From: Polyangiaceae bacterium
Lineage (GTDB): Bacteria; Myxococcota_A; Polyangia; Polyangiales; Polyangiaceae
NCBI GenBank assembly: GCA_029941785.1
Contig: JAPYTK010000025.1
Span: 1 to 40,763, forward strand
Reading direction: 5' to 3'
Length of the DNA stretch: 40,763 nucleotides
Shown here: positions 26,063-29,073 of the stretch, one piece after another
How positions within the stretch are numbered: position 1 is the first letter of the stretch
Layout: each line of letters starts with the position of its first letter
Notes under the pieces: generated by a model
Seen by the model: the letters and a program-made list of their open reading frames with translations, nothing else
Told to the model about the DNA's origin: nothing
Database searches by the model: none
Program-made: the position numbers and the translations under genes

Positions 26063-27178
26063 TCAGCGGCCTGTTTGACCGCGCCAACGTAAATAGTGGT
26101 CGGCGATCACGATGGCGATCATGGCTTCGGCCATGGGAATGAAACGTGGCAGCAGACACGGATCGTGACGGCCGGTCGTTCGTATGGTTGTGGCCTGACC
26201 GTCCGTCGTCACGGTGGCTTGTTCGGTTGGCAAGCTGCTCGTTGGCTTCACGGCGGCCCGCAGCACGATCGGCATGCCGCTGGAGATACCCCCGAGCATG
26301 CCACCGTGTCGATTCGTCTGTGTGCGGAGCTTGCTGCTGCCATCGTCACTGGGGACAAAGACGTCGTTGTTCTCCGTACCGCGCAGGGTGGCGCAGCCGA
26401 ATCCCACCCCATATTCCACCCCCAGCACGGCCGGCAGGCTGAACAAGGCTTTTCCGAGGTCGGCCTTGAGCTTGTCGAACACCGGCTCTCCCAAGCCTGC
26501 GGGAAGATGGTTGACCACGATCTCGGCGATGCCTCCAATCGAGTCGCCGGCCTTCCGCACCGTTTCGATCAACGTGATCATCTTTGCTCCTGCGTCGGCG
26601 TCCGGGCAGCGGATGATGTTGGCGCTCCCGTCGGCGAGTTGCTCGACGTCACATAGGTTGACGAGCTCAGGTTGCGAAACCGACGCGACGATGTCACCCA
26701 CTTGTTTGACGTACCCGATCACGTTTCCGCCGAAGGCGTCTGCGATGAGTGCCTTGGCGACTGCGCCTGCGGCCACCCGGGCGACAGTCTCCCTCGCGCT
26801 GCTGCGCCCACCACCACGGTAGTCGCGCCGCCCGTACTTGGCGTCATAGCTGTGATCGGCGTGTCCTGGGCGGTACTTGTCTTTGATGCCGGAGTAATCT
26901 CGGCTTCGCTGGTCTTGGTTCTTGACCAGAATGCTGATGGCGGTCCCCGTCGTCACACCTTCGAAGACGCCCGACAGGATCTCGGCTCGGTCGGCTTCTT
27001 GCCGTTGGGTCACGATGCGACTCTGCCCAGGGCGGCGGCGATCGAGGTCACGCTGGATGGCCGTCTCTTCGAGCGGTAGCCCGGGTGGACAGCCGTCGAT
27101 GATGACGACATTGGCGGGGCCATGCGATTCGCCTGCTGTCGTCACACGAAATGCTTGCCCGAAGCTGTTGCCCGCCAT
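26063..27178 (-). CDS. aroC: chorismate synthase
   Basis: The 371-residue protein converts 5-enolpyruvylshikimate-3-phosphate to chorismate, the last step of the shikimate pathway, with reduced FMN as cofactor. Signature stretches are GQAFRVTTAGESHGPA at 7-22 (family signature 1), RRPGQSRIVTQRQE, KYGRRDYRGGGRSSARETVARV (cited in part: GGGRSSARE) and the C-terminal GRHDPCLLPRFIPMAEAM. Length is normal (about 360). The start MAGNSFGQ is the conserved N-terminus. It is divergent from the riboswitch-controlled gene and followed on the same strand by the DUF4139 lipoprotein, which is not obviously related. Confidence 0.97.
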   Translation of the reverse strand: MAGNSFGQAFRVTTAGESHGPANVVIIDGCPPGLPLEETAIQRDLDRRRPGQSRIVTQRQEADRAEILSGVFEGVTTGTAISILVKNQDQRSRDYSGIKDKYRPGHADHSYDAKYGRRDYRGGGRSSARETVARVAAGAVAKALIADAFGGNVIGYVKQVGDIVASVSQPELVNLCDVEQLADGSANIIRCPDADAGAKMITLIETVRKAGDSIGGIAEIVVNHLPAGLGEPVFDKLKADLGKALFSLPAVLGVEYGVGFGCATLRGTENNDVFVPSDDGSSKLRTQTNRHGGMLGGISSGMPIVLRAAVKPTSSLPTEQATVTTDGQATTIRTTGRHDPCLLPRFIPMAEAMIAIVIADHYLRWRGQTGR

Positions 27179-27646
27179 AGGCGCATCATACTTGCTGCTT
27201 TGCCCAGGTTGCTATGGCTCTGTGCGGCTTCATCCTGCTCGCCCCCACAAGCGCCTACCTAATTGCCGCCTTTTTGGGGTGGCAGGATTGACTTCGTCTT
27301 TTTCGGACACAAACTTACATCACGGGCCGGGAATGGTTCCCTCCCGATAAAGGCAAACCAGTCGCGAGGCTGGGACGCAAAGCCACGGATCTCCAACCTC
27401 AAAAGGGGGCGAGATAGCCGGGTTGCCGAAAGAGGAGAAGCAAAAGTTAATTGCTTTTGACCATTTAGCCGCTTCTATCTCCCTCATTGCCCCTAGCTGC
27501 GGGGTTGGCGAGTTGCTCTCATACAGCTCGTTTCGGTGTTTTCATTCGCGCCAACCGTGATCGATTCATGTTCACGGGTCGTGGTGGTGTGCGCTGTTCT
27601 CAAGACGCGCGCCGCAGGCCACGATTCACCGCATAGGTAGAGCCCC
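27179..27646 (+). other. 468-base intergenic region between aroC and the riboswitch-controlled gene
   Basis: No gene is seen here. A TTGACT hexamer at 27288-27293, with only a weak -10 about 17 bases on, could be the promoter for the riboswitch transcript. The aptamer itself is at 27340-27435. Downstream, GAGGAGAAGC (27432-27441) can pair with 27471-27481 (one bulged A) around an inner CAAAAG/CTTTTG hairpin, which would compete with the closing stem of the aptamer. CCCC/GGGG (27490-27504) is another short hairpin. The remaining stretch to the start codon is unassigned leader. Confidence 0.6.
27340..27435 (+). ncRNA. cyclic-di-GMP-I (GEMM-I) riboswitch aptamer
   Basis: The conserved GEMM-I core is present in order: GGCAAACCA, a P1b stem CCAGTC/GGCTGG capped by a GCGA tetraloop (27358-27373), GGGACGCAAAGCCACGG (tetraloop-receptor region), a second hairpin with ATCTC/GAGAT, and AGCCGGGTTGCCGAA. 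A closing helix CCTC (27340-27343)/GAGG (27432-27435) brackets it, and GGCAA (27352-27356) pairs with TTGCC. The base equivalent to the ligand-discriminating position is G (27352), as in c-di-GMP aptamers, rather than A as in cGAMP-binding variants. It lies about 210 bases ahead of the lipoprotein gene. The family call is by recognised consensus; ligand specificity is inferred. Confidence 0.93.
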
Positions 27647-28636
27647 ATGTCCAACAACACCTTCCAGACCCGCATTCTCCCCACCTTTGCTCTCGGCGTT
27701 CTGCTGGCCGCCACTGGCTGCAGCATCGGTACCGAGCCAGGAGACCTCGATTCGGCGAACGCTGACGTATTGAGCGATTCCGCCGAGCTCGACCAGGACC
27801 CGGAGTTCAATATGGACGCCCCCTCAGAAAATGAAGAAGCCTCCGACGCGACGGTTCAGGCTGCGGGAAGCAGCGACAAGGAAATAGCGCCGGGGGTGAG
27901 CGTTCCGGAAAAAGCAGACGAGCCCGAAGCGCAGCCCGCGCTTCCGCTATCGGGGAGCTACCTCGACATGATCGTCAGGCGCATCCGTTACGTGACGCCT
28001 TCGGAGATGAGCGAAGTGGTCAAGGACGACTTCCTGACCTTCGATCTTGCCGGGGCGCTGAACCTCTCGCCGGTCCCCTTCAATCCCGCCATCGTGACCG
28101 GGCATCGTTACGATGAGGAAGCCCGCGTCTTGGAAATCAGCTTCACGGCCGCGGACAATACGAATCAAGGTTCGATGGACTGCGCGGTGAGCGAAACGCA
28201 GTCGGCCGCGTCGCACGAGCGTCGATTCGAGTGCAACTTCTCACTCGACAACGGTGAAAGTGAAATGGCGGGGAAGGTTTACCTCTCGCACGAACTTTAC
28301 TCCGACAGCCTCCGCTCGATGGTGAGCAGCAAGGACTACCGCGCCGTAGGCACCACCAATCTGAACGGTTGGGTCTATGTCCAGCAAGTGAGTGCAAGTT
28401 GTCACACCGTCCAGTCCAACCACCGTATTTCCGCACCCAACGGCGTTGTGTATGCCGCCTCGATGGCAAACGTCATTCAGTGCGACAATCGTTGTCAGCC
28501 AGAGTCGGGTCGCATCGAGATGAGCGTGGCGGCTGGCGCCGACGCCGTAGGCTTCACGCTCGAGGCGGTGACCGGCGACCCGTGGCGCATGACGGATGTC
28601 GAGGGCACATCGTACGCCGTCAACGCGTGCCACTAA
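27647..28636 (+). CDS. riboswitch-controlled lipoprotein of unknown function
   Basis: The 329-residue product starts MSNNTFQTRILP. A hydrophobic segment ends AATGC, a lipobox with Cys25. An acidic, low-complexity region (about 30-100, rich in Asp, Glu, Ala) follows, then a probably beta-rich domain (about 105-329) with five or so scattered cysteines (DCAVSE, FECNF, SCHTVQ, QCDNRCQPESG) that could form disulfides. I do not recognise the family and see no enzyme motif. An AGG ribosome site lies about eight bases upstream. The c-di-GMP riboswitch in its leader and the strong terminator behind it make it a monocistronic unit; a role in surface attachment, matrix or motility is inferred from that control alone. 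Confidence 0.85.
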   Translation: MSNNTFQTRILPTFALGVLLAATGCSIGTEPGDLDSANADVLSDSAELDQDPEFNMDAPSENEEASDATVQAAGSSDKEIAPGVSVPEKADEPEAQPALPLSGSYLDMIVRRIRYVTPSEMSEVVKDDFLTFDLAGALNLSPVPFNPAIVTGHRYDEEARVLEISFTAADNTNQGSMDCAVSETQSAASHERRFECNFSLDNGESEMAGKVYLSHELYSDSLRSMVSSKDYRAVGTTNLNGWVYVQQVSASCHTVQSNHRISAPNGVVYAASMANVIQCDNRCQPESGRIEMSVAAGADAVGFTLEAVTGDPWRMTDVEGTSYAVNACH

Positions 28637-29073
28637 CAAAAAAGCCATACGACCAGGCTGCTCTCGACGTTCTCGGATGAACGGAGTGGCTGACGTCGTT
28701 GGGACATGGTTCCTCAAAGCAGCAGCCCCGGAGAGCTTTACGCTTTCCGGGGTTTTTTGTGTATTCGCCAACGAAGAGACGCCGGACGTTTCGTCTCGAG
28801 CGGTGCGCCTCCGAAGATGCATGTTCGCCGGTGTGTGAGCCACGAAACGAAAGGTTTTCGTGAGATTTCGAGTGGACCATCGTTCGAAAGTGAAAGACGA
28901 TGATTCAATAGTGAAATGATCCCGACAGAAGTTGTAATCTAAGTTGCTGATTCTACGTTCGCCCATTGTTGGTATGCGTCGTGCATATGTCTGGCGCAGC
29001 GCTTCGACGGAAACCTTCCCCCCCCAGGTCCGTCGCGGCGCTGTTTCTATTTTGTTCGTGGTATGGCCAACGG
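28637..29073 (+). other. 437-base intergenic region before tatD
   Basis: Besides the terminator at 28726-28758 this stretch holds no gene that I can support. The part from about 28850 to 28960 is more AT-rich than its surroundings and may carry the promoter for the TatD gene, but no convincing -35/-10 pair stands out. In-frame ATGs at 28966 and 28987 could lengthen TatD. Confidence 0.5.
28726..28758 (+). terminator. intrinsic terminator of the riboswitch-controlled gene
   Basis: An 11-bp stem CCCCGGAGAGC / GCTTTCCGGGG (one G-U pair, loop TTTAC) is followed directly by six T at 28753-28758. It is the strongest plus-strand intrinsic terminator in the window and lies 90 bases after the lipoprotein stop. 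Confidence 0.92.

Follow-up and report, generated by a model that had tools for sequence, protein, structure and literature searches.

A c-di-GMP-I riboswitch upstream of a lipoprotein gene of no known family in a Polyangiaceae bacterium, and the repeated placement of such aptamers before lipoprotein genes in its class

The stretch of DNA analysed here (40,763 nt from a Polyangiaceae bacterium; hereafter the window) carries a GEMM-I aptamer 215 nt from the start codon of a lipoprotein gene, and this raises the questions of what the RNA senses, whether and in which direction it controls the gene, and whether the arrangement is peculiar to this locus. The RNA belongs, as an unexceptional member, to a known class of riboswitch; what is uncertain is its expression platform. 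Positions 27343-27431 of the forward strand (P2 27358-27373, P3 from 27382) match the complete model of RF03167 (c-di-GMP-I-GGC, model positions 1-80; 76.8 bits, E 1.2e-16) and that of RF01051 (c-di-GMP-I, 1-87; 76.7 bits), far above the gathering scores of both (59 and 35 bits, respectively), and this is the sole Rfam match at gathering threshold in the whole window. The initial annotation, which had read a complete GEMM-I aptamer from the letters and named an RF01051 covariance search as its check, is thus borne out on this point. A weak promoter-like -35 box, TTGACT, lies about 50 nt 5' of the aptamer (27288-27293, forward strand); a consensus promoter scan called no promoter at these positions.

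The gene behind the aptamer (27647-28636, forward strand) encodes a protein of 329 aa that conforms to a PS00013-type rule, with the lipobox AATGC ending at Cys25, and its product is predicted from signal sequence and lipobox to be a bacterial lipoprotein. Its start codon cannot be earlier than 27647, because an in-frame stop lies directly 5' of it (TAG AGC CCC ATG). The protein had been described as belonging to no known family, and neither Pfam nor NCBIfam has a family above cut-off for it, so that these searches, together with the two covariance scores, support the proposed GEMM-I riboswitch ahead of an unrecognised lipoprotein. Structure prediction from the single sequence gave a beta-rich model of low confidence (pLDDT 41.8). 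Matches of the protein in the PDB were insignificant. The strong terminator previously noted behind the gene is present at 28724-28754 (forward strand), where a 13-pair stem ending in TT is followed by a TTTTGTG tail. With this terminator behind it and a divergent chorismate synthase gene upstream (26066-27178, reverse strand), the lipoprotein gene looks like a one-gene unit.

The choice of ligand depends on a few pocket letters, which we read from an alignment of 138 related aptamers and Vc2. The window aptamer has G20, in agreement with the G already assigned to the ligand-selecting position, and A47; the conserved C of the 3' end (C92) is also present, one column off the Vc2 numbering. Position 47 is A in all 138 relatives; at position 20, 121 have G, 11 have A and six have C. 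RF03167 is the best cmscan label for five of the genome's six aptamers, the window aptamer included, which could be read as a sign of another ligand; the related possibility is 3',3'-cGAMP. We take membership of RF03167 to mean a G at position 47, judging from the model's name and consensus (GACGCGAAGC, against GACGCAAAGC in the window), and this G47 is absent from the window aptamer and from all 138 relatives, just as the A20 of GEMM-Ib (3',3'-cGAMP) is absent from the window aptamer. RF03167 and RF01051 are moreover tied to within 0.1 bit, and with pocket letters that are ordinary the GGC label is therefore no evidence for another ligand; it is a label that can land on aptamers whose c-di-GMP pocket is ordinary. 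The base that stacks between the c-di-GMP guanines is A47 (PMC9049102), and position 20 has been described as a selectivity factor (PMC9262584). The genome also encodes twelve GGDEF domains; the motif is legible in eight, and each of these carries the ordinary substrate residue. Given the retained A47 and G20 and these ordinary GGDEF motifs, c-di-GMP is the ligand expected from sequence, and either of the other ligands is very unlikely. Elsewhere in the same class, some GEMM-I aptamers keep A47 and have A20 (L064, L070, L108, L059 and L121), a letter known from cGAMP switches, or C20 (L103, L104, L111, L115 and L067), which is odd and might reflect another ligand preference.

The window aptamer is one of six GEMM-I aptamers in its genome, five of which precede lipoprotein genes. 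Besides the window gene, these encode a paralogous lipoprotein (contig C127), a lipoprotein with a GmrSD_C nuclease-type domain (C236), one with a peptidase M66 match (C56) and a Sel1 lipoprotein (C58); the lipoboxes on C236 and C56 were judged by eye, and both fail the strict lipobox rule of the class survey described below. The sixth aptamer, on C178 (L004, G000:C178:7808-7882), has GGAGG and ATG in the layout usual among relatives, yet no lipoprotein gene behind it: only a seven-codon frame (MGRFCEF) and a stop follow directly, which might represent a leader peptide or what remains of a decayed gene. There is also a second, longer GEMM-I type (L006, L027, L028 and L029), found in four genomes of the family before related lipoproteins and with a distant ribosome site; its member in this genome is the one with the Sel1 repeat.

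In a search of 59 genomes (this one and relatives), the window lipoprotein has two relatives, paralogues on C127 and C256 of its own genome, each with 22-23% identity to it. A profile run over 308 genomes of the class found nothing beyond short, weak matches close to the N-terminus, and a scan of genome contigs confirmed no homologue outside the bacterium's own genome. Whether homologues consistently lack the RNA, the point on which the initial annotation would have been given up, has a split answer: the C127 paralogue lies behind a GEMM-I aptamer with a leader of about 206 nt and a similar promoter-like box (TTGACA, at the same offset as TTGACT in the window), and no aptamer precedes the C256 paralogue, whose ribosome site is plain. 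The window aptamer shares 83% identity with the C127 one, 82-88% with its siblings in the genome and 90% with an aptamer outside the class. Since the aptamers are 83-90% identical and the proteins 22-23%, the RNA is conserved far more tightly than the lipoproteins. A recent duplication burst as the origin of the genome's five similar aptamers is not supported, as the window aptamer is nearer to one in another class (90%) than to its siblings (82-88%); a tree of such short sequences is weak.

Lipoprotein targets are not peculiar to this genome. Among the genomes searched, RF01051 occurs in 15 of the family's 108, in 25 of the order's 184 and in 49 of the class's 318; of 379 genomes sampled over the whole phylum, 69 have it. 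From the surveyed genomes 138 loci were read. Within the class, 68 distinct aptamers yield 56 callable target genes, and 36 of these, spread over 31 of 42 genomes, pass the strict lipobox rule, compared with 1.3-2.2% per gene when random anchors in the same DNA are given an identical gene choice. Even against a background of 13% (4/30 long frames of the window, any start allowed) the binomial probability is near 1e-18; the counts ignore shared ancestry, although the targets nonetheless fall into many unrelated groups. Their domains include subtilase, trypsin, a reprolysin-type metalloprotease, a pro-kumamolisin domain and carbohydrate-binding modules, along with a GDSL lipase match below its cut-off, and many targets have no recognisable domain. 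The repeated use of GEMM-I aptamers before mostly unrelated lipoprotein genes in the class is thus well supported statistically. The idea that the product of the window gene is an exceptional c-di-GMP effector is not upheld: it would be a regulated target, and one of the kind usual for GEMM-I in this class.

Three further arrangements were seen in the surveyed genomes. One genome outside the class (G427) has seven GEMM-I aptamers (L091, L122-L127), each with a start codon 10 nt behind, whose targets all look like lipoproteins and in several cases carry long Asp runs or DxDxDG-type repeats. One genus of the class has tandem GEMM-I pairs (L109 in G229:C986, L073 in G235:C360 and L107 in G236:C1001), and the aptamers of this genus finish with GGAGGATGCGTTGC or a similar sequence; no lipoprotein start is evident in their vicinity. 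In two Bacillota metagenome bins (L168 and L170), an aptamer with a CCGAAGGAG end is followed by a gene beginning SLGIDLGYGFVKG, which by eye looks actin-like.

The relatives suggest a direction of control. Of the 68 class aptamers, 32 have the chosen start codon 8-14 nt behind them, and a ribosome-site motif coincides with the P1 3' strand in 31 of those 32. Pairing between the two strands of P1 is also better than in permuted pairs, with a mean longest helix of 4.15 against 3.23 (sd 0.09) over all aptamers and 4.26 against 3.66 (sd 0.12) in the near-start subset (0/1000 permutations in each case). As the ribosome site is itself the 3' strand of P1, ligand-induced shut-off of translation is implied, and the simplest reading of the usual layout is that a ligand-stabilised P1 hides the ribosome site, so that translation would fall at high c-di-GMP.

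The window copy departs from this layout, and with 215 nt between aptamer and start codon its read-out is uncertain. The 5' strand of P1 (UUCCCUC, 27337-27343) pairs with 27432-27439, with one bulged A, and the 3' strand with its extension, GAGGAGAAGC (27432-27441), contains the GGAG that most sister switches use as their ribosome site; the idea that this GGAG serves a hidden small gene in the window was rejected, since no ATG or GTG is suitably spaced from it. The probable ribosome-binding region of the lipoprotein gene is instead AGGUAGAGC (27635-27643), before the ATG at 27647, and the leader in between (27432-27646) is more structured than its shuffles (fold z-score -2.78). In folding and duplex tests an arm of this leader, GCUUCUAUCUCC (27471-27482), can pair either with 27432-27441 or with the ribosome site, in both cases marginally when set against shuffles (all these features are on the forward strand). 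The mutually exclusive pairing proposed initially, in which the letters that close the aptamer against 27337-27343 pair alternatively with 27471-27481, is real as complementarity, and the unconstrained fold favours the alternative by about 4-5 kcal/mol; with 4% of dinucleotide shuffles of the next 60 nt, and 6% of those of the whole leader, pairing as well, the competing hairpin alone is only marginally beyond chance. When P1 is forced, the arm (27471-27480) is freed and pairs with the ribosome site in the minimum-energy fold, lowering the mean unpaired probability of that site from 0.25 to 0.06, a site that is thus mostly paired even in the free fold. The joint pairing of the arm is matched by 33 of 200 shuffles, so the swap does not exceed chance. 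Nor is this exchange seen in the C127 leader, and a swap conserved in both aptamer-led paralogues is therefore not supported. As a switching element the pairing is therefore possible, at a statistically marginal level.

A leader of this length and structure could be read out in other ways. P1 and the competing hairpin might choose between read-through and termination within the leader, with either polarity, and a terminator-like site does occur at 27507-27532; of its nine pairs, however, four are G-C, its T run is broken, such sites occur 1.9 times on average in shuffles of this region, and most relatives have the plain translational layout, which leaves a transcriptional read-out as a minority reading that we think unlikely. 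The leader may also contain a promoter of its own. More doubtful again is that the aptamer is a relic, which still folds and has lost control of the lipoprotein because 215 nt separate the start codon from P1. The departure from the relatives' layout, the marginal competing pairing and the C178 aptamer without a lipoprotein gene directly behind it all speak for a relic; against it, the window has a complete aptamer that shares 82-90% identity with others, and the C127 copy keeps the same layout even though protein identity has fallen to 23%.

On balance we favour, with some reserve, a canonical c-di-GMP-I riboswitch that controls a one-gene mRNA for a lineage-specific lipoprotein, as one of a set through which c-di-GMP would control lipoproteins in this bacterium and the rest of its class; P1 would hide the ribosome site in most members of the set, and the window copy would reach the same polarity through the arm swap. 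For the window copy we infer ligand binding, the direction of control and the swap itself as follows. Without ligand, the arm would pair with 27432-27441. With ligand bound, P1 (27337-27343 with 27432-27439) would form and release 27471-27480, and the freed arm would then cover the true ribosome site at 27635-27643, giving an OFF response as in the relatives. A wider proposal, which we put forward only tentatively and with low confidence, is that the c-di-GMP-I riboswitches of the class form a compact cassette of aptamer and ribosome site before many unrelated lipoprotein genes, so that surface lipoproteins, proteases and a nuclease among them, would make up a programme repressed by c-di-GMP, and that in the window the old ribosome site is now a decoy competing for the arm able to cover the distant true one. 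If these riboswitches are linked throughout the class to lipoproteins, among them several hydrolases, c-di-GMP would bear directly on display and digestion at the cell surface; about 36 target genes are on offer for which the predicted polarity is simple and open to reporter tests.

Discussion of GEMM-I riboswitches usually centres on genes for motility, biofilms and electron transfer. The kind of riboswitch is known; for lipoproteins as its target class, we found no report on GEMM-I and lipoproteins in myxobacteria in a library of largely open-access papers. The window copy resembles the c-di-GMP-I (GEMM-I) riboswitches of RF01051 in its full-length match, its G20 and A47 and its position upstream of a gene for an exported protein, and differs in having as its target a lipoprotein of no known family with a start codon 215 nt from the aptamer. 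To the c-di-GMP-I-GGC family (RF03167) it is linked by the best score, by 0.1 bit, but not by that family's consensus G47. With the GEMM-Ib (3',3'-cGAMP) riboswitches of Geobacter it shares the fold and the extracellular nature of the targets, but GEMM-Ib riboswitches carry A at position 20, where the window has G. The Geobacter targets include an operon of lipoprotein transpeptidases, and deletion of the cGAMP enzyme lowers target transcription (PMC6456294), an ON response, in contrast to the OFF response that we would expect of the window copy.
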